A DNA stretch of 49,954 nucleotides from a virus (IMGVR_UViG_3300007515_000010:1-49954); one strand, 5' to 3'. Counted from the stretch's first letter, positions 17,192 through 44,844 are shown. A program made the numbers and translations. Notes: generated by a model not told the origin, from the letters alone.

Positions 17192-17991
17192 TAAAAGAAA
17201 GACAAGTATTTCAGGCATTATTAATAGAATATCTAGGGAAGCCTACAATTAAGGTTACAATAGATGGCAATAACATTTTGTCACCAACAGGAAAGACGCT
17301 ACCGGAACATCTTGTACGACAGACAAGGAGAATATCTCTACCTAAAGGAGCACATGGATATGTAGCTCAGATGACTTCTGACTTAACAGATATAACACGA
17401 TACCAGTTTGAAGCACAACCAGAGGGGAGTTTTAAGGATAATACATTATTCCATTACTATGAAATAACTTTTAATAAAAATATACAAATTAAAATGTTCA
17501 TGGACGAAGAGTCAGTAAAACCAAATAACAACATTGACAAAACTGTTTCTCTAATACCAAGAAATGGAAGGAATCAAGATACAATAAAGGTTTATTTCCC
17601 TCCCCTGACTTATGGGTATATCCCCCATCTTGAACAAGTTATATCTTCTGTTCAGAAAGGTCAAATTCTATCCTCAAGACCAGTGGCACTGCCAGTTAAA
17701 TATTACAAAGGGCTTAAGTCACACACAGAATACCAAGTCACTTATCAAGGAGAGGTGGAGTTAGCCCTTTTTATGGACGGCGAGCAACTATCTAAAGAGT
17801 GGCTTCCAGAAGTAGTAATACCACAAGATGGAGGGTATAAGACACATAAGGACTATTTTCCTGCTAACTCATCTGGTCAGGTACTCCAATGGATACAGAC
17901 GGATGGAGATGGAGATATAGCATTATTAGAAACAGATCAGACTCTATTAGATGTGGAGCAACCTCAACAACCTACACCACAGGGGCAGTAA
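17188..17991 (+). CDS. Three-module beta protein related to the nozzle C-terminus
   Basis: 267 residues in three similar blocks (about 5-75, 90-165 and 180-255). Each has a strand of the type xYxGxPxIxVxxDG, a loop with P or LP, a VYFP.(L/N)..G (or LPKGAHGY) element and a final strand. The same block forms the last 75 residues of the preceding nozzle-like protein (LTYTGTPTVLVKVDS, LYFPAMTEGHIPHI). This suggests a domain that spread by duplication between neighbouring tail genes. Function unknown; a tail surface role is inferred. Confidence 0.6.
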   Translation: MIKERQVFQALLIEYLGKPTIKVTIDGNNILSPTGKTLPEHLVRQTRRISLPKGAHGYVAQMTSDLTDITRYQFEAQPEGSFKDNTLFHYYEITFNKNIQIKMFMDEESVKPNNNIDKTVSLIPRNGRNQDTIKVYFPPLTYGYIPHLEQVISSVQKGQILSSRPVALPVKYYKGLKSHTEYQVTYQGEVELALFMDGEQLSKEWLPEVVIPQDGGYKTHKDYFPANSSGQVLQWIQTDGDGDIALLETDQTLLDVEQPQQPTPQGQ

Positions 17992-17992
17992 T

Positions 17993-20266
17993 ATGATGAA
18001 AAGAGAACCGGGATTTATGGGATTGGCAAAACGTAATGCCAAGAAAAAACCAATATCACCAGAACAACAACAGTTCCGTCAACAATTGGGACAGGAGATG
18101 CAAGCAGACCAAGCACAAGAACAGGGTATGGTGGATAAGATGTCTGCATATAATCGTATGCAACAAGATAAGCAGAGGATGATGGAAATACCAAAAGAGT
18201 ATGAACCTTCTCAAGGTGGTGAAATGGAAACATTAGCATATGTTAATCCTGAAGAGATGCAGATGCTAAGAGAAGCAGGTGGTTCTGGTGAAATGACTGA
18301 GTATGGTGTGCCTAGTTTTGCTAGACCTGAAAATTATAAAGGGCCGAAGACAAGGAAAACGAGTTCACCAAAGAAATACGGATCAACAAATTTAGGAACA
18401 GGGAATAGAAAGGCAAATAGAGGAGACAAGAGTAATATGTCAAGAGGTGGAGGATGGTCGCATGGAGGGCCGGGATCGGATGAAGGTGCTGGTGCCGCAT
18501 ACAAAAGAAGCCAAGCACAAGCGGCTAATGCCGCAAGAGGGCCGGGAAGGGCTGGTTTTAGTACTGTAGGAGGCGGCGGAGGCGGCTCTCAATACAAAAC
18601 AGGTAGCGCACATGGAGATGCTGTAGCGGCTAGAGGCGGTGAGAGTGGTGGAACTGGAGGAACACATCCAACTGGGCCTCCACCCGGAGTATCTCAAGCT
18701 CAGTATAACCAGTTACAACGACAGTATGATGAATATAAAGGGGGTGAAGCGGCGAGACAGAAAGAAGCCGCAGATAGGAGGATGCAAAATTATCGCAAGT
18801 CTGAAAGGGCTAAAAGACTTGGAGAATATGAAGGATATAAAGGAGAAGCTAAAGGTCTTGGTGCTGAAGCTAAAGGTGTAACTGGTGAGTTTGGTAAAGA
18901 TGCAACAAAACTGGCAGGGTATCAATCTAAATTTGATACAATGGCAGGAGAGGCAAAGACTAGAGGAGATGAAGGAGAAAAGTTTCTTCAAGGAGAAGGT
19001 ATAAAATATACAGATGCGGCAGGTAAAGGTGCAGAAGCTCTTAAAGGAATAGGTGAAGGATATAAGGGGGTAACTGGTCAGGGCATGGTAGATGCCGCTA
19101 AAGCTGGTCAGGAAGGTTTTGAAGCGGGAGCTAAAGATTTAGGTGAAGTTAGGGAACAGTTTGGTCAAGAAGGATTCCAAAAGGATGTAGGAGGATATGA
19201 AAGCCAGATAGCAGGGTTAGCTGAAAAAGCTATGGGCGGTGATCTCGGTCAACGAGAAGCTGGAATGCTGAGAGGTCAGATGGAGGAAAGTCGTATGGCT
19301 TCTCAAAAGGGTAGTGAGGAAAAGCTGAGACGATCATTAGCACAGTCAGGAGCTTCCCCAGCAGAAATAGCGGCTAAGGTAGCACAGTTCCAGAAGTCTT
19401 CGGCTGGACAACAAGCACAAGCAGGAAGGTCTGAAGCACTATCATCACAACTTCAAGGTCAGCAAATGGGTCAAGCTAGACTAGGTCAGGCCGCTGGATT
19501 GATGGGGCAGGGTGCAGGAATGGTAGGTCAAAGGGCTGGTATGGCAGGTCAACAAGCTAGTATAGGAGCACAACAAGCCGCACTTAGAGGACAAGGTGCC
19601 GCAATGCAGATGCAGGGTGCACAAGGTCAGCAACAAGCACAGCTTGCATCTTTAGGAGGACAAGCGGCTATGGCTCAAGGAGCCGCAGGTTTGAATATGC
19701 AGGGTATTCAAGGGGGAGCGAATATGTATGGACAAGGCATGGCGGCAGGTATGCAGGGTCAACAGCAACAAGCCCAAATGATGGGACAGGGTATGGGTGC
19801 AATTCAGGCCGCTGGTGGTGCGAGAAGTCAACAAATGGCAGGAATTGGGACACAAGGTCAGTTTGTAGATCAACAAGCAGGATTTACTCAGGCTCAACTT
19901 AATGATGTTATAGCACAAGAAACACAGGCATATCAGGAAAAACAGGGACAGGCACAACGAGCCGCTAATGCCGCCGCTAATTCAGGTGGTGGAGGAGGTG
20001 GTGGAGGACTCCTTAGTGGAATTTCTAAAGTATTTAGATCAGATATTAGACTCAAAGAAAACATTGAACTTCTTGAAGAAGGAAAGGGCGGTGATCCAAA
20101 TATCTACTCATTCAATTATAAGTGGCAACCAAAACATAGATGGTCAGGTGTAATGGCTCAGGAATTACTAGGAACCAAACACGCTGATTCAGTAAGAACA
20201 CACCCAGATGGATACTATAGGGTTGATTACCATAAACTTGGTATCCAAATGAAATTATTATCATAA
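17993..20266 (+). CDS. Gln/Gly-rich virion protein with S74 self-cleaving chaperone domain
   Basis: 757 residues from the ATG at 17993, chosen because the frame upstream only overlaps the preceding gene. Residues 1-300 are polar and disordered; about 300-480 is a Lys/Glu/Gly helix region; about 480-665 is an almost uninterrupted Gln/Gly/Ala/Met stretch (GQQQQAQMMGQGMGAI). After a GGGGGGGG linker, the last 80 residues are an intramolecular chaperone domain of peptidase family S74: FRSDIRLKENIELLEEG, GVMAQELLG, DGYYRVDYHKLG. The S-x4-K dyad is Ser-683 and Lys-688. S74 domains trimerise and cleave themselves off; they normally end beta-helical fibres, not Gln-rich proteins. A packaged or tail-internal protein is possible. 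Confidence 0.72.
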   Translation: MMKREPGFMGLAKRNAKKKPISPEQQQFRQQLGQEMQADQAQEQGMVDKMSAYNRMQQDKQRMMEIPKEYEPSQGGEMETLAYVNPEEMQMLREAGGSGEMTEYGVPSFARPENYKGPKTRKTSSPKKYGSTNLGTGNRKANRGDKSNMSRGGGWSHGGPGSDEGAGAAYKRSQAQAANAARGPGRAGFSTVGGGGGGSQYKTGSAHGDAVAARGGESGGTGGTHPTGPPPGVSQAQYNQLQRQYDEYKGGEAARQKEAADRRMQNYRKSERAKRLGEYEGYKGEAKGLGAEAKGVTGEFGKDATKLAGYQSKFDTMAGEAKTRGDEGEKFLQGEGIKYTDAAGKGAEALKGIGEGYKGVTGQGMVDAAKAGQEGFEAGAKDLGEVREQFGQEGFQKDVGGYESQIAGLAEKAMGGDLGQREAGMLRGQMEESRMASQKGSEEKLRRSLAQSGASPAEIAAKVAQFQKSSAGQQAQAGRSEALSSQLQGQQMGQARLGQAAGLMGQGAGMVGQRAGMAGQQASIGAQQAALRGQGAAMQMQGAQGQQQAQLASLGGQAAMAQGAAGLNMQGIQGGANMYGQGMAAGMQGQQQQAQMMGQGMGAIQAAGGARSQQMAGIGTQGQFVDQQAGFTQAQLNDVIAQETQAYQEKQGQAQRAANAAANSGGGGGGGGLLSGISKVFRSDIRLKENIELLEEGKGGDPNIYSFNYKWQPKHRWSGVMAQELLGTKHADSVRTHPDGYYRVDYHKLGIQMKLLS

Positions 20267-24105: not shown

Positions 24106-27100
24106 ATGGCACAAAGATTCTCAGCATGGTTTAATGCTAATGCCTACCCGTGGGAGAGTTACGAAGAATCTCGTAAAAGATACGAGCAACAGTTTGGCCC
24201 CATTAAGGAAAAAAAGAAGGAGAAGTCACCAGACGATGGGGACAGACTAAGAAAAATAATAGCAAAGAAAAATAATAGGAATAAACCTACTGAACAGAAG
24301 GTAGAAGAGACTAGCGGATTCTTAGATTCCCTTAAGGATTTCAATAATATGATGCCTTGGGATGACACGTTTCAAGGTTTTATAAAGGGTGCCATACCGG
24401 GTACAGATGATGCAATGGCCTCATTAGGTTTAGTTGCAGGAGATACAGTAGCCCCCACACTAGAGGACTTAGGGTTAAACAGTCTTGGAGAAACAGTAAG
24501 AGAGTGGGGCTATGATACCTACCGTACTAATAAGGCTGAAGCCGCCGAAGAAGAAAAATTACATCCCCGACCTAAGACAACAGAAGAAGAACTCAGAGAG
24601 GCTGATCCTAACTACCGTGCTCGCACAAAATCGGAGATAAGGGAGGCTGGTGACTCTTTTGAAGCAAGTCTCTATGAGACATTCCCCTCCTTAGAAGAAG
24701 CAGAATGGATTCCCTCTTCTGAGGAATTCCGTAGAGACCTCCCAAGTTCATATGATGTAGGCAGAACACTAACAGCTTCTGGTATGCCAATGGTAGCCGC
24801 CGCTGGAACTGCCGCAGTTGGTATTGCTACAGGTAACCCTGTAATTGGTGGTGTTGGAGCAATGGTTGTAGGTTCACTAGGAGGTGCCGGACTTGTAAGT
24901 GCTGAGTATAGTGAGCAAGTTAGAGAGAACCCAGTTGTTCGCAGATCACTTGGTATAGACCCAGACAAGCCCTTTGATAAACTATCCCCCGCAAATCAAC
25001 AGAAACTCCTTAGAGTAGCCTCTGATGCTGGAAGATTAACCTTTGGAAGAAGACTCACATCTTCTGGTCTTCCTGAAATGCTTTCCTATGCCCCTTGGGG
25101 TGGACGAATATTCAGGGCATTCCTAGACGTAGCAGGTGGCACCACATCAGAAATGTTAGATATTGATGTCGGTGAAAGGGCAATAGTTGATGCCCTTGTT
25201 AAACATGGTGTTCCACAGGAGAAAGCCCATGCCCTACAACAATCATTGAGGGAAATTGGGCCAGAGAGGAAAAAGGTATTTACACAGACCTTAGTGTCTG
25301 AGGGTATAATCTCTACTGGATTCACTTCTCTTGAAAGTGCCACATATGGAGCCGCAAGTGAGCATGTGGATGAAAATGCTACATCAGCAAAAAGACAGAG
25401 GGAGGTAAAGCAAAAATTTGAAGAAGAGTTACAGAAGATACGCAGGAAGAAGGCAGAAAATACAGAAGAAATAATAAAGAATGCTGGAGTAACAGTAGAA
25501 CACATCGAAGCCATGATGGATGCAAATGATGTGGAGGGGGCTACAGCACTCTTTGAGCATGTAAAGAAAGCAGAGCCTAGAATGCAGAATGATGTTGCTG
25601 AACTCTTGATGCAGAAGAATCCAACTGTATTGTGGAGGATAGGCAAACATTTAGGTGATACTGAGACTATGGATAAGGCAATGGAAGCCCAAGAGGAACT
25701 ACTGGCAAACTTAGAGGCGGAACAAACTAAAGCTGATGAAGCTCAGGAAGCCGCAGAGATAGACAAACAGAAAAAGAAAGAAGACGCAAGGGCACAAAGA
25801 AGAGCAGATGCCGAGAAAGCAGATGCCGCTAAAAAGAAAAAGAAGACCACAGTTAAAAAGAAAAAGAAGAAGGTTGTAAAACCAAAGGTAGTAGTCGAGC
25901 CAGAGGTAGTAGTTGAAGAGGATGTAAAACCAAAGGATGAGACTCCCAAGGTTAAACCAGCAAAGAACATCGCTGAGTTAGCAAAACGGTGGGAGGATGC
26001 AAGATTGAAGGGTGAGTCCTACAAATTCAGTCCTGAAGAGTCTGAGATGATGGGTGACAGGAAAGAGTTTGATCAGGAATTAAAGAAGTACAAAAATACT
26101 CCTAAGTATATAAAGGAGAACATACCAAGATTAGCAGAAAAGGTAGCTAAAAATCCTAATGCTATGAATGATTTTACTGGAGGGGAATTATCCTTTATAG
26201 AAAATAACCAAAAATTATTTGATGAAGAATTAGCGAAAATAAAGAAATCTAAAAAGACTACTACTAAGCCCCCAAAGAAAACTACTAAGGCTACTACAAA
26301 GGTTGAAGATACTACAACAACTCCTCCAGAAACTAAAGCTCCTAAGAAGACTAAGGAACCTGATTTCACTAAAATAGATGATTTATCTGATGAAGACGTA
26401 GATACAGTTATTGATATTGTTGGTGAAGAAAGGATTCCAGTACGGTCTGTATTTACTGAAGATGTACCGGGTAGGCTTTCCGTATTAGATGAAACATACC
26501 CTGATGGAATGACCGCAGAGGAAATGGTTATGGAAGAAATGTCCATTCAGGAAGAAAAAAATAGAATAAAAAATGAACCAATAAATGAAAAGATACAAAT
26601 AGAAAATGAAAAGAGATTAGAGGAAGGAAAGGATGAAAAGCCATATAAGTCAGATGATTTATCAGACCCACAATTAACTTCAGCACAAAATAGAGGAGAA
26701 AAGAATTTTGCTAAGGCTGTAAAGAAAATTCAAGCGGAACAGCTTGCGGCAAAAGAGAAGCCAAAAATAAAAGATGTAGATGTAGAAAAGTTTAATACCT
26801 TTGTAGATAAATTTATTGAAGACAAGATAAAGGGTTTTGAAAGGGTTAGGAAGAAGGGGCAAAAGAAACAGAAGGCTACAAAGAAGATGGTCAAGGCATG
26901 GGAAGCTGAAGCTATTGCCGCTTTCCAAGCAGAACAGAAGCCAGTAAAGAAGTCCGCAGTTAGATCAAGAAGTGCAAGCACTAGACCACCTAAGAGGGGA
27001 GCATTCGGTCTTGCTGTTGATGAAGTGAAGAGCTTAGTATCTTCATTTGTAGGTATGAATAAGAAATTAAAAAAGTATGGGGTAAAATACAATGTAATCT

Positions 27101-30100
27101 CAAATAGAAATAAAAAGGATATACAGGCTCTAACGGCCTTAGAAGAAGCATACTTTGATCAGCAGGATGGTAAGGGTGAGTTTGCTCCAGAAAATAAGGA
27201 GGCTTGGGTCAAGGATCGAGTTACAGATACGCTAGAGAATGCAGAGGGTTTCATTGATGATAAAACAGGTGAGATCACCATAATCACAGAGAATATTTCT
27301 GGTGATTCAGCAACTGTTGCCACGGAAAGGCTCGCTGAAGTTTTATTCCATGAGACTATAGGACACCACGGCCTTAAGAAAACACTTGGTGATGGGTTGC
27401 AATTATTCCTAAGTAGGTTCAGGAAGACTGAAGCAAAGAAGGTGCGAAAATATTTTACAGAAGGGGAAGGCCAGTCATATCTTATACCTAAATTAAAGGG
27501 GTTAAAAACAGTTAAGGAAAGGCAAAAGGTTTGGGATGACTTATCCGATAAGGAAAAGAATGATTTAACTGAGGAGTTTATAGTTAAAAAATTCGCTGAG
27601 TTTGGTGCAAGAGACCCAGATGTAATTAGCAGGATGGGAGTACACATCCAAAGAGCATTAAATAAATATGGTTGGGGTGCAGTAGGTAGAAAACAAGTAA
27701 TGATGACCCTTAAAGAAATAGAAGGGGATTACATAGGAGGTGACAGAAACTTCTGGACAGGAGAAACATTCAAGTCAGTAGCGTTTAAACGTGCACATAT
27801 ACTTACTGGTGAAGAGGCAGAGATAGAAAAGGTTGGGCTGACACCTGAAGAAGAGTACAGGGCCAACGAAAGGAAACTCCGTGAAGGTAGAAAAAGAGAA
27901 GCTAAAGTAAGTACAGAACCTCGCTTAGTTGAAGGGCGTACTGATGAACAATTACAGGAAGAATATAAGATTAGGAATGAGCTATATGACCAGTATATAA
28001 ATGGGCAGGTTGCCACTCATAATGAATCTCAGGATTCGTTTAGTCTCCATGCGTATGTGTTAGGAAGATTAAAGAATAACAGGAAGGTGAGAGGCACTAA
28101 GGCAAAGAAGCCACTCATGAAAAATGTAGCACAGAGTGTAGCAAATAGAATCCAAGATAAGTTAGAAGACAGAGCTAAATGGAAGAAGGGTAAGAAATTT
28201 GAGGCAGTATTTAAGAGGGCTGTTGAAATTGAGACCCTTGCTAACTCCAAGGGAGTCAAGGCAAAGGCAACTCCTAAAGCAACTCCAGAGCCTACAAAGA
28301 AAGCAAGGAAAAAGACAGCAAAGCCGACTGGTACTATAGGTAGCACTCTTGGTATACAGGAACAAGTAGGATTCGCAGGTACTAAAGAAACCTTTCTAGG
28401 AATAATGGATTCTGGAGCAACACGTTCATCAATTGATAAGGCGTTAGCTAAAAAACTAAAATTAAAAAAGAGTGGTAAAAAGAGTACACATGGGTCTGCT
28501 TTTGGAATAGAAAAACGTGATAATGTCATAGCTACGATTAGTCTGGGAGGGCAAACATTTGAAGTAGAAATGTCTGTATCTAATCGTTCAGGGTTTGATG
28601 AGGGTATCCTAATTGGTCGAGATGTTTTAAGGAAAGGAAATTTCTTGGTTAATGCCAACCTTGAAAGTCATTTAGGTACTCTTAAAAAATCAAGAAAGAT
28701 GGGGTTGTACGCAAAGTACAACAAGGAGTATAAGACAGAAGGTTCAATGTTACTCCATAACAATACCAGACCAGAAGAGGGGCCATATAGAATTACGTTC
28801 TTCAAAGCGGATGGGGAATTGGATATGGCTCGGACTGAGAATGGAATAGGGCATGAGCACTTCACTACACTAAGAAAGGCAAAGGATAGACTGAAAGAAG
28901 TAGGTGAGGATATTCAGGATATATCCGGTGGCAGGGAGGTTAAGATGTCAAGGAAGGTTGCCCAACCTACTAGAGAACTCCCCATTACAAGAGAGCACGA
29001 AGCCGCTATTACAGATGTTGGACTAAAATTCTCCAGAAGAACAAAGCCTCCACCAGAAAAAACATTTAAGGCATATAAGTTATTAAAAATGAAGGTGAGG
29101 AAGCCGGGTCAAGTCTTCCCATTATTTATTGGTAGAGCAAAACCAGTTATTATGGGTGAATGGCTTGACGCAGAATTTATTCCTACAAAAGGATTTTCTC
29201 CAAGACCGGGTTGGCATCTATCTGATACTCCAGCCGCTCTTCATATAGGTACTGAAAAGAAACCTGTGGATGGTAAGCAAAAGCCAACCATTAGGCGTGA
29301 TGATGAGGTCTGGGCTGAAGTAGAGGTGGCAGATGATGTTGACTGGCAACCAGAAGCAAACAGGAGGGGGAGAGTATATAGTAAAGGTCATAAACTCGCT
29401 GGGCAACCCATGCCATCTTCAAGGGAAATAAAAGATGAGATACCTGTAGACGGTAATTACAGATATAAAACAAATCCTAATATGCAGGGTGAGTGGGTTA
29501 TAGCCGGAGCGGTTAAGATTAATAGAATTCTGTCAGATACTGAAGTGTCAGCTATAAACGAAAAAGCAGGGATTAAAGACCTACCAAGAAGAAAACCACT
29601 TGATACTAAGACATATGGATTTAAACAGTCAAGAAAAGCTCCAAAAGTAGATTTTGATGAGAAGTATCAAACCGAAGAAGGATGGGATACTGTACCTCCA
29701 GAGGTAAGGCAACAGTATGAAGATGGCTTAATATCTGAGGAGGAAGCAATGTCCCAGACTAGAATATTCCCTGACATTAGGCTTGATGAGAGACGGCACC
29801 GTCTAGCAGAAAGATTCTTTGAAGTACAAGGATTAGAGGAAATATTCCCAGATGTTCCATCAGATATTAGAGTGGATACTTATGAGGTTATAGATGACCG
29901 TAGTGTAGCAGTATATACAGAAGCTCATCCATCAAGGGGTACAAGGAAGGGAACAGGGGATCAGTTTGGTTACAGGGTTCCTAAAATATCAAAGAAGACA
30001 TTTAAGAATCCTACGCTAGGTGAACTTGTAGAATGGGAAGGTGATAAGGGAATTAAACAGTCAAGGAAGATGACTACCTTCACAGAGGAACTGGCACAGG

Positions 30101-33100
30101 CTGAAGCTAAGATTGATCCTGTTGCATTTGCAAAGGCGGCAGAGAAGAGAGTTGAAGAAGGGAAGAAGGTTGGTGCTAGGAGAAAGTCACAGGCCGAATC
30201 AATAGGAGCCGCATATAGGCTTAGTATTAGTGATGAAGGAGTTCAGAAGTACCTAGAGAATAAATCAGACGAAGGACACGGTGCAGTTATTGGTGCGGTC
30301 AAACTGTCAAGAAAAATGATGAAAACCTTTGATCTCTCAAAGAAAGAACTAGCAGAGATGGACGGTCAGAATGCAGTAGGTGGAGTTGCTGATAGATTAG
30401 CTTTAGGCCCATATACACCACTACATGGTAAAAATTCTACGCACCAAAAAATAATGGAAGAGTTACATGGTGGGCCAGATTATGCGTTTCAAAAAAGGAA
30501 CCAACCAAGTAAAGAAAAGAGGGGTGTGTGGGCTTCTACTAAAGGAGCAATCCAAAGATTAGTTAATGCAATAGGAAGAACAGAAGCAAAGTACGGCCTT
30601 ATAATAGTGGGAAAATCAGACCAGCATAAGAGCAACATGGATGTTTGGAATGTGATGTGGGGAGAAACCTTAGATGCCCGTGATCACGGGTTAATACTGG
30701 ATGATGGTTCATTAAAGAGGGATGCTGACGGTAACATACTCAAGGCAGATATGAACTGGATTAATAGAGTAATAACTGAAGGTAAATTTAAGAAGAATGG
30801 TGAAAAGCAATTTGGTTCATTATTAGAAAGACAAGTTAAGATTACTAAAATCGACCCTGTAACTGAAGAGAAATCTACAATTATAATGGATGTTATCCCT
30901 AAAGATTTAAAAAGCAAAATTACTGATTTCGATTCATTAATGCGACAGGGAGAAAATTTAACATTTGATCAAAGAGCAGAAGTCTTAAGTTATATTTTTG
31001 GGAACTCCGATCCTGTATATGCAAAATCTGATGCAAATGAAAAATTAGGAAGGACTGGACAAAGTAATCCAGACTATAAAGCAAAGGTAGAAATTGAAGC
31101 TAATGGGGTAAGCCTTGCAAGAGTAATAAGGAGAACCTCTGCATATCCAGATGCAAAAATGGGTGACTTGGTTGGGATTGTTAGGTTTGACACTCACAAG
31201 GAAAATATGCTTACAAATGCTGATGAGTTAGGTATTAAGGAACATCCTACTTACGATACTGTAATTCAAGGACAAGGAATTATACGTTATGAAAAAGGTA
31301 TTCCAATGGCTGAGTGGGCTAGAGATTGGTTGTTTCAGGAAAGAGAAAATAAACAGGTTCCGTTCTTCTCAAGGGAGGGGCAAATAGACTTTGAAAGAGG
31401 ATTTATTTACTCCCCTGAAATGTTGGCATTTTTAAGGGGCGAAAGAAAAACAGAGCCTAAAATTAAAACGAAGGGGTTTACTGCAAAACAAAAATTATCA
31501 TCAGCAAAAAGGGTTATAGAATATAAGCCGGATGCAGGGCTAAAGATAACAACAAGGATGCTTACTGAACCTCAGAAAATTGACAGTAACGCTAAGAAGC
31601 TGTCAAGGAAGATGATTAAAAAGTCTGCTGATTTTTCTCACTCAAGGATGGGAGACCCTGCAATATTTGAGTGGCAGGACAAGCTGGCACACAAGCTGAC
31701 CAGAAGGTTGGTATCTCAGGGTACACTTAATGATGTAGAGATGTACAAGGAATTAAGGAGACGGAACAAGGGTACAATTATGTTAGCTGAACAGGCAGGG
31801 GAGAGGTTGTTCAAGGTTTTGTCTAAGTCAGATGATCAAAAAGCTCTCTATGAATACTTTACTACATTCAATGCAGACCCTACAAAGATCAAGAACGAGC
31901 TTGAAAGAAAGGAGGCTGTTAAAGCTAAAGAAAAAATCAATGCGATAGGTAAGGCTTTAGTCAAGAGAGGACTGATGACTCAGGAATCACTTGATAAATA
32001 TGGAGATCAGTACCTCCCAAGAAAGTATATGAAGTACCTACTGTCAGAGTCTGACTACGCTAAGATTAGTACTGGTGGGGCTGATGTGAAATTAGACCTT
32101 AGTTATTTAAAAAAGAGACTGGACATTCCGCAGGGGATTAGGGAACTGATATTAGGAGAAGTAAAAGACCCTGCATTCCTTTCCTCAGTAGCAATTACCG
32201 CTCCACTAAGGGATATGGCTATGCTTGACTGGTTGGAACAAATAGCTATAGTTGGGACTAAGGAGGGTAGAGACTGGGTCTTGCCAGAAACTCTTGTACA
32301 GTTTGACACATTAGGAATGATGAAACAGTTGGCTGGCGGGAACACAGAATTAATAAAACAGCTTCAGTTGTATGACACAGAAGGAGTTAATGTTAGTGGT
32401 CATTGGTTACTTAATGAGGCAGATAGATTACAGGACTTGATTGATAATCGGCTGGTACTTACACCAGATAAGGAAGCTCTGGTCAAGGGGTTAATAAAAA
32501 AGATGAGAGCTTCAGGACAGAAGATAGCTGGAGTTGTTCTACCAAAGAACTATGTAAAGGTACCAAAGGGTAGGAAGTATGGGATGCTCTCAGGGATGGC
32601 AGTCCGAAAGGAAATATTCCAAGACATATGGGGTTCGCCATCTCAGGGGTCTTTTGATGTAGACGATAATGGTTACATTTCTCAAAGTTGGGCAGAGAAA
32701 GTTCTTGGAACAGGAGGAGCATTTGAAAGGTATAACAGATTATGGAAGTGGTCTAAGGTGTCTGCAAACCCACCTTCATGGGTAAGGAACTTTGTTTCAA
32801 ATATGATCTTCATGACTCTTGGCCCAATACCAATTCATAGCCTACCGGGTTTGTTTAAGGATGCTATTATAGACCAGATAAGTACAAGGAATAGGCAACG
32901 GAAGGGGGAAGCACCTGACCCTAATTCCATGACTGCACTTGCAGATAAGATGGGCCTGACCTCTGGGGGATTCAGTCAGGTTGAACTTAAAATGATAAGG
33001 AATAGTTTTGCAGAGTCAAAGGTTAAGGGTGATGGAGTCTTAGGTATTTTAAATATTAGGAATGCCTTTATAGGATTTGAGAAGTATGTACAGCGACCAA

Positions 33101-34278
33101 CTTCTGACTTGTACGGAGGTATTGATACACTTGGAAAGGTGATGATGCTCACCCACCTAAAGAGAAAGGGATTCTCAGATGATAGGGCCGCAATGGAAGC
33201 AGAGAAGTGGTTGTTTGATTACAGCAACCCCCTGCCGTCCGTTAAGTACCTGAGAAAGAGTGCGTTTGGTGCACCGTTCCTTTCCTATCCTAGTTTCGTT
33301 GCTCCGCTGATGATTGAAACAATAATTAAGAGGCCGTGGAAGTTAGCACCTTACTTTATATTTGGTGAACTAATGACAGCCCTGTTTAAGGAACAGCAGG
33401 ATATTGATGATGAAGAGTGGCAAGCAACCCTTGAAACATTACCTCCATACCTAAAGAACAAGGCAGTAGGAGGATCAATAACAGACAAGCTGTTTCCAAA
33501 GAGTGTCATTCCTTTAGTGTGGCCCACTTCATGGGGTGGTTCCTTAGATAAACTTGGTAGGGCACAGCCTGTAGATGTAGGTTACCTACAGCCGTGGGGT
33601 ATGTTTGCTGAAGTTATGAGAGAGCTTGATCCTACTAAAAAGGGAGGCTGGTCTCCGGCTGATGCAACCCACTCCGTAGGCTTGTTAGGGGCACCAATAC
33701 TGAATATTGCAACTACAATGCTGACTAACAGAGACCCATTCTCTGACAGGGAAATATTTGATGAGTTTGCTACACAGGGAGAAAAAGCGGCGGCATGGTT
33801 CCATTATATGTGGAACCTGACAATGCCTCCAATGATGCATGGATTGACGGCTGGGCCGGGTCAGGGATTTGGTGCAATTAGGAGGTTGATAGATGCATAC
33901 GATGATACTGTTGTTACAAAAGATGGGGAACCAAAATTTACTGAAGGTCAGGCAATAGCTAGAATGTTTGGTATGAACGTAACACCTATTGCCCCTTGGG
34001 AAGCAAGGCAGAAGATCGCATATTTTGAATACCAAAAAATTCAACGGCTAACAAGGAAGATTGCTCACGACTATAGGATTGGACTTCAAAATGGACTTTC
34101 AAAGAAAGAACTGGAGGAAGTTACTAAAATAAATGTAGACAAGGCAAATGCTCTTATAAAAGACCTGAAAGAGATGTTGGCAAAACCACTTCCTAAATCT
34201 CTTAAGAGGTCAAAACTTCAAAAATTAAAGGCAAGGGAAAAATTCCTAAAGCGAGTAAAGCAACTAAAGGCTGGTTAA
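24106..34278 (+). CDS. Giant 3390-residue polyvalent-type virion protein with protease domains
   Basis: Modules in order: charged start; Gly/Ala hydrophobic stretch 226-265; Lys-rich linkers about 577-625 and 725-760; a zincin-like region with HETIGH at 1082-1087 preceded by EGFIDDKTGEITIITENI; a retropepsin/RimB-like aspartic protease about 1410-1525 with DSGAT at 1435-1439 and ILIGRD at 1501-1506; then seven K-x-S-R-K/R motifs (Ser 1529, 1615, 1643, 1842, 1986, 2068, 2500) separating further modules. One of these has RPGWH (1700-1704) and HIG (1713-1715), as in large polyvalent phage proteins. The last 890 residues resemble the C-terminal LPD38-type region (SANPPSWVRNFVSNMIF). Such proteins are carried in the virion and injected, protecting or helping the incoming DNA. 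No RNA polymerase motif was found. Domain names are from recall. Confidence 0.72.
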   Translation: MAQRFSAWFNANAYPWESYEESRKRYEQQFGPIKEKKKEKSPDDGDRLRKIIAKKNNRNKPTEQKVEETSGFLDSLKDFNNMMPWDDTFQGFIKGAIPGTDDAMASLGLVAGDTVAPTLEDLGLNSLGETVREWGYDTYRTNKAEAAEEEKLHPRPKTTEEELREADPNYRARTKSEIREAGDSFEASLYETFPSLEEAEWIPSSEEFRRDLPSSYDVGRTLTASGMPMVAAAGTAAVGIATGNPVIGGVGAMVVGSLGGAGLVSAEYSEQVRENPVVRRSLGIDPDKPFDKLSPANQQKLLRVASDAGRLTFGRRLTSSGLPEMLSYAPWGGRIFRAFLDVAGGTTSEMLDIDVGERAIVDALVKHGVPQEKAHALQQSLREIGPERKKVFTQTLVSEGIISTGFTSLESATYGAASEHVDENATSAKRQREVKQKFEEELQKIRRKKAENTEEIIKNAGVTVEHIEAMMDANDVEGATALFEHVKKAEPRMQNDVAELLMQKNPTVLWRIGKHLGDTETMDKAMEAQEELLANLEAEQTKADEAQEAAEIDKQKKKEDARAQRRADAEKADAAKKKKKTTVKKKKKKVVKPKVVVEPEVVVEEDVKPKDETPKVKPAKNIAELAKRWEDARLKGESYKFSPEESEMMGDRKEFDQELKKYKNTPKYIKENIPRLAEKVAKNPNAMNDFTGGELSFIENNQKLFDEELAKIKKSKKTTTKPPKKTTKATTKVEDTTTTPPETKAPKKTKEPDFTKIDDLSDEDVDTVIDIVGEERIPVRSVFTEDVPGRLSVLDETYPDGMTAEEMVMEEMSIQEEKNRIKNEPINEKIQIENEKRLEEGKDEKPYKSDDLSDPQLTSAQNRGEKNFAKAVKKIQAEQLAAKEKPKIKDVDVEKFNTFVDKFIEDKIKGFERVRKKGQKKQKATKKMVKAWEAEAIAAFQAEQKPVKKSAVRSRSASTRPPKRGAFGLAVDEVKSLVSSFVGMNKKLKKYGVKYNVISNRNKKDIQALTALEEAYFDQQDGKGEFAPENKEAWVKDRVTDTLENAEGFIDDKTGEITIITENISGDSATVATERLAEVLFHETIGHHGLKKTLGDGLQLFLSRFRKTEAKKVRKYFTEGEGQSYLIPKLKGLKTVKERQKVWDDLSDKEKNDLTEEFIVKKFAEFGARDPDVISRMGVHIQRALNKYGWGAVGRKQVMMTLKEIEGDYIGGDRNFWTGETFKSVAFKRAHILTGEEAEIEKVGLTPEEEYRANERKLREGRKREAKVSTEPRLVEGRTDEQLQEEYKIRNELYDQYINGQVATHNESQDSFSLHAYVLGRLKNNRKVRGTKAKKPLMKNVAQSVANRIQDKLEDRAKWKKGKKFEAVFKRAVEIETLANSKGVKAKATPKATPEPTKKARKKTAKPTGTIGSTLGIQEQVGFAGTKETFLGIMDSGATRSSIDKALAKKLKLKKSGKKSTHGSAFGIEKRDNVIATISLGGQTFEVEMSVSNRSGFDEGILIGRDVLRKGNFLVNANLESHLGTLKKSRKMGLYAKYNKEYKTEGSMLLHNNTRPEEGPYRITFFKADGELDMARTENGIGHEHFTTLRKAKDRLKEVGEDIQDISGGREVKMSRKVAQPTRELPITREHEAAITDVGLKFSRRTKPPPEKTFKAYKLLKMKVRKPGQVFPLFIGRAKPVIMGEWLDAEFIPTKGFSPRPGWHLSDTPAALHIGTEKKPVDGKQKPTIRRDDEVWAEVEVADDVDWQPEANRRGRVYSKGHKLAGQPMPSSREIKDEIPVDGNYRYKTNPNMQGEWVIAGAVKINRILSDTEVSAINEKAGIKDLPRRKPLDTKTYGFKQSRKAPKVDFDEKYQTEEGWDTVPPEVRQQYEDGLISEEEAMSQTRIFPDIRLDERRHRLAERFFEVQGLEEIFPDVPSDIRVDTYEVIDDRSVAVYTEAHPSRGTRKGTGDQFGYRVPKISKKTFKNPTLGELVEWEGDKGIKQSRKMTTFTEELAQAEAKIDPVAFAKAAEKRVEEGKKVGARRKSQAESIGAAYRLSISDEGVQKYLENKSDEGHGAVIGAVKLSRKMMKTFDLSKKELAEMDGQNAVGGVADRLALGPYTPLHGKNSTHQKIMEELHGGPDYAFQKRNQPSKEKRGVWASTKGAIQRLVNAIGRTEAKYGLIIVGKSDQHKSNMDVWNVMWGETLDARDHGLILDDGSLKRDADGNILKADMNWINRVITEGKFKKNGEKQFGSLLERQVKITKIDPVTEEKSTIIMDVIPKDLKSKITDFDSLMRQGENLTFDQRAEVLSYIFGNSDPVYAKSDANEKLGRTGQSNPDYKAKVEIEANGVSLARVIRRTSAYPDAKMGDLVGIVRFDTHKENMLTNADELGIKEHPTYDTVIQGQGIIRYEKGIPMAEWARDWLFQERENKQVPFFSREGQIDFERGFIYSPEMLAFLRGERKTEPKIKTKGFTAKQKLSSAKRVIEYKPDAGLKITTRMLTEPQKIDSNAKKLSRKMIKKSADFSHSRMGDPAIFEWQDKLAHKLTRRLVSQGTLNDVEMYKELRRRNKGTIMLAEQAGERLFKVLSKSDDQKALYEYFTTFNADPTKIKNELERKEAVKAKEKINAIGKALVKRGLMTQESLDKYGDQYLPRKYMKYLLSESDYAKISTGGADVKLDLSYLKKRLDIPQGIRELILGEVKDPAFLSSVAITAPLRDMAMLDWLEQIAIVGTKEGRDWVLPETLVQFDTLGMMKQLAGGNTELIKQLQLYDTEGVNVSGHWLLNEADRLQDLIDNRLVLTPDKEALVKGLIKKMRASGQKIAGVVLPKNYVKVPKGRKYGMLSGMAVRKEIFQDIWGSPSQGSFDVDDNGYISQSWAEKVLGTGGAFERYNRLWKWSKVSANPPSWVRNFVSNMIFMTLGPIPIHSLPGLFKDAIIDQISTRNRQRKGEAPDPNSMTALADKMGLTSGGFSQVELKMIRNSFAESKVKGDGVLGILNIRNAFIGFEKYVQRPTSDLYGGIDTLGKVMMLTHLKRKGFSDDRAAMEAEKWLFDYSNPLPSVKYLRKSAFGAPFLSYPSFVAPLMIETIIKRPWKLAPYFIFGELMTALFKEQQDIDDEEWQATLETLPPYLKNKAVGGSITDKLFPKSVIPLVWPTSWGGSLDKLGRAQPVDVGYLQPWGMFAEVMRELDPTKKGGWSPADATHSVGLLGAPILNIATTMLTNRDPFSDREIFDEFATQGEKAAAWFHYMWNLTMPPMMHGLTAGPGQGFGAIRRLIDAYDDTVVTKDGEPKFTEGQAIARMFGMNVTPIAPWEARQKIAYFEYQKIQRLTRKIAHDYRIGLQNGLSKKELEEVTKINVDKANALIKDLKEMLAKPLPKSLKRSKLQKLKAREKFLKRVKQLKAG
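28330..28680 (+). other. Retropepsin/RimB-like aspartic protease domain inside the giant protein
   Basis: Residues about 1409-1525. GIMDSGATRSSIDKALAKKL carries the D-S-G-A motif after a hydrophobic strand; a second strand pair follows (ISLGGQTFEVEMSVSN), then ILIGRDVLRKGNFLVN. The pattern D-(S/T)-GA...S then LIGR-x-x-L...F-x-V is that of PF05618/RimB-like proteases. One D-S-G per chain means that it must pair with a second copy to be active. Confidence 0.65.
28681..31608 (+). repeat. Seven K-x-S-R-K/R motifs in the giant protein
   Basis: Cores: LKKSRKM (28681), VKMSRKV (28939), LKFSRRT (29023), FKQSRKA (29620), IKQSRKM (30052), VKLSRKM (30298), KKLSRKM (31597). Intervals between serines are 86, 28, 199, 144, 82 and 432 residues. 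None occurs before the protease domain. Confidence 0.7.
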
Positions 34279-43442: not shown

Positions 43443-43618
43443 TATCTCCCCCTTTGGCTACTTCGCCCCCTCGCCTGTTCGTGTTGATTTTTTAACCTCT
43501 CTAAATGCTTGCGATGGGGGTTGTTAAATTCATCTGCCCTCTTAGCCCTTTCTTTGGCTAATTCTTTTTGAAGCTCAGAGTTACTGAGTCTCTCTAATTG
43601 TCCTACTCTCAGTGCCAT
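43442..43618 (-). CDS. 58-residue basic helical protein
   Basis: MALRVGQLERLSNSELQKEL, then KRADEFNNPHRKHLERLKNQ and an Arg-rich tail. Excellent ribosome site GGGAGGTAT before the ATG. It overlaps the oxygenase gene before it (38 bases) and the HNH GTG after it (TAGTG). No family recognised. Confidence 0.65.
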   Translation of the reverse strand: MALRVGQLERLSNSELQKELAKERAKRADEFNNPHRKHLERLKNQHEQARGRSSQRGR

Positions 43619-44216
43619 ATACCTCCCTTTCTTTTATTACTCTTTCTGGTGTTTTTAAATAACTAAAATTAATAACGTGCCTCGTCTGTGTGTCTGTCTG
43701 TGTGACCATCCTGTGTTTAGTACTCAATGGGAATGTTACTGTCCTGTTAGCTATACTTTCAATTATTGTACCATCCTCTAATTCTGTGTACCCATTGTTT
43801 GTATTAATATAAAAAATAGATGTTGCCCACTCAGAATCCTTATACTTAGGGACATATTTATTTCCAGTAGGTAGTATCCACACCCCTCTTCTTTCCTCTC
43901 TAGGTTCCTCATCTACATGGAACACAGAAGAGTATGGTTGTTGGAGTCTTAAGTTAAAATTTATCCTTATACGAAATAATATAGAAATATCTAACGCTTT
44001 ATGGAATATTCTAAAATAATCTGCATAAATTTGGCTCATCGGAGTACCGTCAAGGTATACCATGTGTTTAAACATTCCGGGCGTAGGTAATATCTCAACA
44101 TCTTTAGAGGACACATATGGGCTAAAGAACCACGGAAATTCTTCAGCATAGACCTGCGTTTTTAAAGTAAGAAAATCTACCTGCGGTAAAAAATCATCTA
44201 TAATAGTAACATCCAT
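43581..44216 (-). CDS. 2-oxoglutarate/Fe(II)-dependent oxygenase-like protein (second of two)
   Basis: 211 residues from ATG 44216, which has GAGGTG four bases upstream; the open frame before it overlaps the first oxygenase. Opening DVTIIDDFLPQVDFLTLKTQ is typical of prolyl-hydroxylase-like proteins. FHVDEEP supplies His-x-Asp, and LSTKHRMV with RHVINFSY near the end supplies the distal His and an Arg for 2-oxoglutarate. Substrate unknown; marine phages often carry such enzymes next to each other. Confidence 0.7.
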   Translation of the reverse strand: MDVTIIDDFLPQVDFLTLKTQVYAEEFPWFFSPYVSSKDVEILPTPGMFKHMVYLDGTPMSQIYADYFRIFHKALDISILFRIRINFNLRLQQPYSSVFHVDEEPREERRGVWILPTGNKYVPKYKDSEWATSIFYINTNNGYTELEDGTIIESIANRTVTFPLSTKHRMVTQTDTQTRHVINFSYLKTPERVIKEREVYGTESRTIRETQ

Positions 44217-44217
44217 A

Positions 44218-44844
44218 CTACACCTCGTTCCACACCATTCCATCTCTGCCAGCTTGAAACCAGCCAGTGATGTACATTTTTTCACCTTCCAGCGGGGGAT
44301 TACCCCTGTGCATATGAGTGAACCCTACAGGCCAGAGTAAGGTTCTCCCCACCTTTGGTTCTATTCTTAATGATTGATGAAGAAATTCAGTTTCACCTCC
44401 CTTTGTTGGAGCCTCCAGATATGTCATATAAGTTAGTATCCTGTCTAGGTATTTATATTCTCCATTTTCATAGTGCCACACATGATACCCCTCGCCTTGC
44501 TTAACCTTATGAATCTTAAATAGGTCATTAAAAATTGGGCCTCCAAATGAAATTGAATACCTATTCATGTAATGGTCAAAGCATTCCTTTAAATAATCAT
44601 AATAAGCCCGACAGGGTGGAATGGGTAAAATAGTAGATACTGTAGGGAGTATATATATAGCCTCATCCCTTCTCAGGGGCAAATCTGTTCTCCCTTCTTG
44701 CAACCCTGTCTCATTCGGTTGTAAAAGATCAATAACTGTCTCATTCTTTTTAGCTAATGCATAATTTTCTACAAATTCTTCGCACAATTCGACAGGGACA
44801 TTATCGTCATATATCCCTATAAATTCTTTATACTCTGCTTTCAT
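44218..44844 (-). CDS. 2-oxoglutarate/Fe(II) oxygenase, prolyl 4-hydroxylase-like (first of two)
   Basis: 208 residues. KVKQGEGYHVWHYENGEYK, ILTYMTYLEAPTKGGETEFL and PKVGRTLLWPVGFTHMHRGNPP, then YITGWF form the double-stranded beta-helix core of the P4Hc group, with GGETEF and the WPxGFTHxHRGN motif holding the distal His. The first iron ligand set is WHYE rather than the usual H-x-D, so activity is likely but the ligand needs care. Acts on an unknown host or phage protein or base. Followed directly by the second oxygenase. Confidence 0.82.
   Translation of the reverse strand: MKAEYKEFIGIYDDNVPVELCEEFVENYALAKKNETVIDLLQPNETGLQEGRTDLPLRRDEAIYILPTVSTILPIPPCRAYYDYLKECFDHYMNRYSISFGGPIFNDLFKIHKVKQGEGYHVWHYENGEYKYLDRILTYMTYLEAPTKGGETEFLHQSLRIEPKVGRTLLWPVGFTHMHRGNPPLEGEKMYITGWFQAGRDGMVWNEV

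Follow-up and report, generated by a model that had tools for sequence, protein, structure and literature searches.

A short virus-specific motif repeated at the module junctions of a giant phage protein, a candidate processing site of an embedded HExxxH peptidase

Introduction

Is a giant phage protein cut into pieces at a short basic motif that recurs along its chain and, if so, by which protease? This question is raised by a 49,954-bp virus record of IMG/VR (IMGVR_UViG_3300007515_000010, analysed as a whole and hereafter called the window), in which a protein of 3,390 amino acids (aa) carries repeats of K-x-S-R-[KR]. An original prediction, made from the sequence alone, had proposed that the protein is processed at these repeats, with an aspartic protease domain as the implied cutter. 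The present analysis indicated that the motifs are specific recognition sites at module joins, where the position of the motif is kept between relatives, where module order may change, and where the sites of one virus change together. This part of the proposal stood, whereas cleavage at the sites is what we infer from it. The implied cutter is probably the wrong one: the aspartic protease domain was found in this virus only, while another predicted peptidase domain, with an HExxxH signature, accompanies the motif in relatives.

Results

Seven motifs at module joins

The giant protein contains exactly seven copies of K-x-S-R-[KR], as first counted, all of them within aa 1527-2502 and thus downstream of the aspartic protease domain, as had also been claimed. 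Shuffling the composition of the whole protein gave a mean of 0.21 motifs, with a maximum of 3 in 2,000 shuffles, and shuffles restricted to aa 1401-2600 gave a mean of 0.09. In an unsupervised search, K.SRK indeed topped all 3- and 4-residue gapped patterns of the protein (6 versus 0.13 expected). The residue preceding the first K is hydrophobic (h) in six copies and K in the seventh, and Met directly follows four of the seven (aa 1527, 1984, 2066 and 2498), a detail already present in the original prediction. The distance from a motif to the nearest edge of a homology block was 0-12 residues (mean 3.9; p = 0.0006 versus random positions), which bears out the claimed placement at module joins. 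The protein does combine several unrelated modules, since at least A2, B, the retropepsin-like (aspartic protease) domain and the C-terminal domain occur in other contexts or orders. The open reading frame (ORF), its motifs and its variable modules are as follows.

24106..34278, + strand: giant ORF, 3,390 aa; closes the late (+) operon and converges with the replication genes of the - strand
28684..28698, + strand: motif 1, KKSRK, aa 1527, then M; the equivalent in relative L032 is INQSKAF
28699..28941, + strand: module A2, aa 1532-1612; present in L032 in a different order
28942..28956, + strand: motif 2, KMSRK, aa 1613; in L032 VNMSRKR, then a different module
29026..29040, + strand: motif 3, KFSRR, aa 1641; NFSKR in L032, RFSKR in L040
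29053..29619, + strand: module B, aa 1650-1838; PHROG 30118; Certrevirus and Kayfunavirus phages have it as a separate early protein
29623..29637, + strand: motif 4, KQSRK, aa 1840
29638..30054, + strand: module C, aa 1845-1983; delimited by motifs 4 and 5
30055..30069, + strand: motif 5, KQSRK, aa 1984; kept in L002/L031 and L030, with the next residue changed from M to L or from M to V
30070..30300, + strand: module D, aa 1989-2065; a shorter piece stands in its place in L030
30301..30315, + strand: motif 6, KLSRK, aa 2066; KMSRKF in L002, NLSKK in L032
30316..31596, + strand: module E, aa 2071-2497; includes FFSRE, aa 2420-2424
31597..31611, + strand: motif 7, KLSRK, aa 2498; KQSRR in L002 despite half of the flanking residues being changed

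The motif in relatives

Relatives were taken as a graded set from a scan with the C-terminal domain. In L002/L031, among the two nearest, the core K-x-S-R-[KR] was kept at three shared junctions; at the site equivalent to aa 2498, L002 keeps only 11 of 22 flanking residues but still has K, S, R and a basic residue. Three sites occur in relative L030, two of which enclose a piece that is shorter than, and different from, that of the window. In L032, whose identity over the shared blocks with motifs is 52-64%, K.SR[KR] is absent, and the junctions carry NFSKR, NYSKR, NQSKA, NMSRK and NLSKK instead. Module order in this relative switches exactly at a motif, which reads GGRKVNMSRKR and is then followed by TTFTEELAQ. 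More distant relatives present the same shape, h-X-x-S-[KR]-[KR], in which X is virus-specific (K, N, R or S) at nearly all sites: N in L032 and L033, mainly K in L035 and L036, R in L038, L040 and L082, and S in L085. RFSK was seen 4 times versus 0.03 expected in L082, and IS.S.R 6 times versus 0.03 expected in L085. The Met that follows some of the window's motifs is exchanged in relatives for L, F, V, A or R, with the remainder of the motif retained. Alignment of the related giants, which had been proposed as a check, thus found the motif kept in position with varying flanks.

The motif is absent from many giants. Most giants that share only module B are without K.SR[KR], and a scan of prokaryote genomes yielded one distant relative, on a contig of a Deferrisomatales metagenome-assembled genome, without the motif set. 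As a separate observation, FFSRE in module E (window 31363-31377) is FFSRK in L002, a possible eighth site gained or lost.

Concerted variation of the sites

In the DISCRIMINATING test, the downstream sites of ten proteins were pooled and compared with 5,000 shuffles. The second motif residue was identical within a protein in 57% of pairs versus 20% after shuffling, a value reached by none of the 5,000 shuffles. Agreement within proteins was weaker at the R/K (p = 0.012) and K/R (p = 0.014) positions and absent at positions h (p = 0.93) and x (p = 0.86). Protein composition is no explanation for the shared second residue: L032 contains 4% Asn, yet carries Asn at six of six sites.

This pattern bears directly on the alternative raised with the original prediction, namely a flexible linker copied together with the modules. 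A duplicated linker would be expected to be alike throughout, while a shared recogniser would fix only the positions that it reads. Positions h and x are not homogenised, and the codons and the following residues differ, so that a copied linker is rejected as the sole cause. Virus-specific concerted change is, by contrast, what recognition by one shared partner would be expected to produce.

Candidate proteases within the giant protein

The regions of the giant protein that flank the motif-bearing part, and its two candidate protease domains, are the following.

24106..25683, + strand: N-terminal region, aa 1-526; by blastp, common to relatives L032, L035, L036 and L038
27004..27840, + strand: HExxxH domain, aa 967-1245, with HETIGH at aa 1082-1087 (nucleotides 27349-27366); predicted polyvalent-protein metallopeptidase, delimited by phmmer and alignments
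28390..28632, + strand: retropepsin-like aspartic protease domain, aa 1429-1509, with DSGA at aa 1435 and LIGRDVL; Pfam match
31678..34275, + strand: C-terminal constant domain, aa 2525-3390; the most conserved part of the family

The retropepsin-like domain is the sole Pfam match in the giant protein (Asp_protease_2, PF13650, 25.9 bits versus a cut-off of 24.3; PF13975 fell below its cut-off), and the retropepsin signature DSGA plus LIGRDVL lies in the matching profile. Its end (aa 1506-1509) is 18-21 residues before the first motif, which had rightly been placed just behind it. However, phmmer found no match to the domain in 64 relatives, and a direct scan, whose reach covers close relatives only, found it in no viral contig. 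The structure model of this stretch had a predicted local distance difference test (pLDDT) score below 50.

The first reading had overlooked a second predicted protease domain, more widespread and located upstream, around HETIGH at aa 1082. This HExxxH domain is common to L032, L033, L035, L036, L038, L040, L082 and L085, and every relative that has the motifs and is complete in this region carries it upstream of them. H-E-x-x-x-H and a downstream E-E...F-x-E-x-G are invariant in 11 aligned proteins. The domain is predicted to belong to the HEXXXH class of polyvalent-protein metallopeptidases. Since the retropepsin-like domain was found in this virus only and the HExxxH domain in the motif-bearing relatives, the aspartic protease is disfavoured as a general cutter, and is probably the wrong candidate.

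A related motif beside the HExxxH domain in other giants

A scan with the HExxxH domain alone, together with the earlier loci, gave 57 non-redundant giants, 48 of which lie outside the window's clade; the following results concern these 48. Between +95 and +270 residues from the His, the tripeptide [FY]S[RK] reached a 6.1-fold enrichment (21 versus 3.5 expected), compared with 2.4-fold further downstream. Scrambled or substituted controls were mostly enriched about 1-2-fold, with [RK]S[FY] at 3.5-fold. [FY]SR was the most enriched [FY]-led tripeptide in the exit region behind the domain (18 versus 1.7 expected), and 21 of the 48 giants carry [FY]S[RK] there versus 4.3 expected; the association is therefore common but not universal. 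The long form h-X-x-S-[KR]-[KR] was not enriched in this set (17 versus 17.4 expected). In Vibrio phage K249, a cultured relative, HEILAHH has QFSK (aa 1034) and MFSK (aa 1589) on its two sides.

Module B and other variable modules

In Certrevirus and Kayfunavirus phages, module B has a stand-alone form of about 110 aa; it is likewise part of other giants, which do not have the motif. In the Kayfunavirus IMM-002, the stand-alone relative is encoded in the early region, directly behind gp0.3 and before a protein kinase gene, a position that suggests a host-takeover or anti-defence function for module B. Two of the giants that share this module, L012 and L014, contain LPD38, while no LPD domain, including LPD38, was matched by Pfam in the window's giant protein. 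In another giant with module B (ORF L013:2152-10698), Y-M-P is repeated within aa 940-2475 (6 versus 0.11 expected), including copies just before and just after module B; it may be an unrelated junction motif of a different phage. A further repeat, P-N-L-x-x-V-G in L038-L040, was considered as a second junction motif and dropped, as it forms a clustered repeat domain. The P-[NS]-L-x-x-V-G repeats (L038 aa 2551-2593, L039 aa 288-340, L040 aa 2138-2196) resemble a repeat domain of the leucine-rich type that sits as an insertion within the variable region.

A model of the junction region (aa 1405-1850) had a pLDDT of 57 and no useful match in the PDB. Within this model, the linker that holds motif 2 and the end of the linker that holds motif 4 had a pLDDT below 50.

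Genomic setting

The genes upstream of the giant ORF in the late operon match tail, internal virion and structural families, and the replication genes facing it include ribonucleotide reductase, primase-helicase, RusA and Sak4-like genes. No match to terminase, portal or major capsid protein was found among the window proteins searched, which may mean that the record is incomplete or that these genes have diverged. A 771-aa neighbour (window 17951-20266) has a weak C-terminal match, below cut-off, to Peptidase_S74, a self-cleaving chaperone of tail fibres. On the - strand, overlapping genes at window 43581-44844 gave matches to endonuclease V and to a 2OG-Fe(II) oxygenase, which together may relate to DNA base modification or repair.

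Discussion

The giant protein is best read as a phage polyvalent protein, with a constant N-terminal part, the HExxxH domain, variable modules and a constant C-terminal domain. Its repeated, position-specific and co-varying sites could be those of a self-processing polyprotein, and we infer that a protease reads them. At the least, the motif would be a recognition motif that co-evolves with a partner. On balance we lean, with some reserve, towards the stronger reading that it is a processing site of the HExxxH peptidase, which would cut the giant protein and free its modules. From a mechanistic point of view, hK-x-S-R-K would mark the junctions of variable modules, the embedded peptidase would cut at the motifs, in cis or between copies, and the modules would be released either inside the head or following injection. 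This mechanism takes recognition to mean cleavage and the HExxxH domain to be an active peptidase and the cutter, and it presumes that the protein is packaged and injected and that the timing is as proposed.

Several observations weigh against it. The N4 virion RNA polymerase, which has a peptidase domain, is packaged uncut (PMC5512222). The HExxxH domain had no Pfam match, and its model (pLDDT 72, predicted template modelling score 0.71) no significant PDB match (best E 1.1), so that its zincin fold is putative. Relatives by the C-terminal domain such as L034, L039, L041 and L042, some of them incomplete sequences, had no clear motif set, and [FY]S[RK] was missing from the exit region in 27 of the 48 giants outside the clade. 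Moreover, the enrichment had been seen before the L082 and L085 sets were recognised, so that their individual p-values are optimistic.

The motif may also not be cut at all, and serve as a docking peptide for the HExxxH domain, as a packaging tag of each module, or as a neutral linker favoured by module exchange. Sequence data indeed reveal a recognition-like constraint and not a chemistry, and the low model scores around motifs 2 and 4 are compatible with such linkers. A neutral or copied linker should, however, match at every position, which h and x do not; in addition, the codons differ and the Met behind the motif is lost in relatives. We regard an uncut element as unlikely, although it is the best of the alternatives. 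Cutting by a protease encoded elsewhere, either another phage protein or a host one, appears rather unlikely. Basic motifs in exposed linkers would be easy targets, and prohead proteases do cut many virion proteins at a short motif, as SPN3US gp245 does after AXE (PMC10052503); the prohead protease is likewise presumed to process P1 DarA (PMC12810830). By contrast, [FY]-S-[RK] tends to accompany the HExxxH domain in unrelated giants as well, which favours the embedded domain over an external protease, and six neighbouring late proteins contain one weak match to the generalised motif and no HExxH-type sequence. The embedded retropepsin-like protease is a still less probable cutter. Its above-threshold profile match, its signature and its place just ahead of motifs that all lie downstream speak for it, yet L032, L033, L035, L036, L038 and L040 carry the motif, the domain was found in none of the 64 relatives searched, and it resembles one more cargo module. 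Finally, internal translation starts or a repeated DNA element, suggested by the ATG after four of the seven motifs and by the TCA codon of Ser in six of seven, were rejected as having virtually no chance, since relatives replace Met and keep the rest, the codons of R and K vary, and L033 uses TCT for Ser.

Should the preferred reading hold beyond this virus, a widespread class of phage polyproteins would process itself through an embedded HExxxH peptidase, at short motifs particular to each virus (core [FY] or x, S, [RK]); the sites would co-evolve with the peptidase, so that module boundaries would be readable from sequence. We advance this generalisation tentatively, and with less assurance than the reading of the motif itself. 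If the motif is a cut-site code, giant phage proteins could be divided into functional units, the fragments that enter the host could be predicted, and sequence-specific peptidases of a new family would become available together with sets of their natural substrates.

Comparison with known systems

The closest known system is that of the polyvalent proteins, predicted to be processed by such peptidases, and among which the HEXXXH class has been described (Iyer et al., 2017, PMC5512222). Like those with a zincin-like metallopeptidase, the present protein is a giant multidomain phage protein with an HEXXXH-type domain, variable modules, a neighbourhood of virion genes and predicted self-processing. 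It differs from that account in its defined junction motif, a possible processing code; we found neither a recurring junction motif nor an aspartic protease described there (Iyer et al., 2017).

Among individual proteins, gp69 of Burkholderia phage JC1 (DarB-like, 4,515 aa) was detected in purified virions by 51 unique peptides (PMC9144972). Like the window's protein, it is a giant late podovirus protein; it has an HExxH domain and a C-terminal LPD38, and inspection by eye found ARFSVSA after and RSFSVSP before its HEAFH domain. It nevertheless has V and not R/K after Ser, HExxH and not HExxxH, and no reported cleavage, and it is likened to the window's protein by analogy. Its presence in virions supports, without showing, a virion location for the window's protein, which is by this analogy probably packaged and may be injected with the DNA. 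P1 DdrB, a virion protein with a peptidase domain, was reported to be processed to 76 kDa (PMC5512222). Unlike the window's protein, it belongs to the HELGH class and is without a repeated motif; LSRAF at aa 720-724, near the expected size, is a lead only, which does not settle the matter. SPN3US gp245 and its AXE sites are similar in that a single phage protease acts on several virion proteins through a short motif (PMC10052503), but there the protease is separate, the motif is another one, and the sites mostly remove N-terminal propeptides rather than lie at module junctions.

Retroviral and RNA-virus polyproteins would be similar in their working, in that the sites between their modules are particular to each virus and change together. 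According to Iyer et al. (PMC5512222), these and polyvalent proteins do not have the same types of peptidase or the same domains. The retropepsin-like domain of the window's protein is accessory. In the limited open-licence literature searched, no description of a virus-specific junction or cut-site code was found. Polyvalent proteins and their predicted self-processing were thus already known; what appears new here is the virus-specific motif at their junctions.

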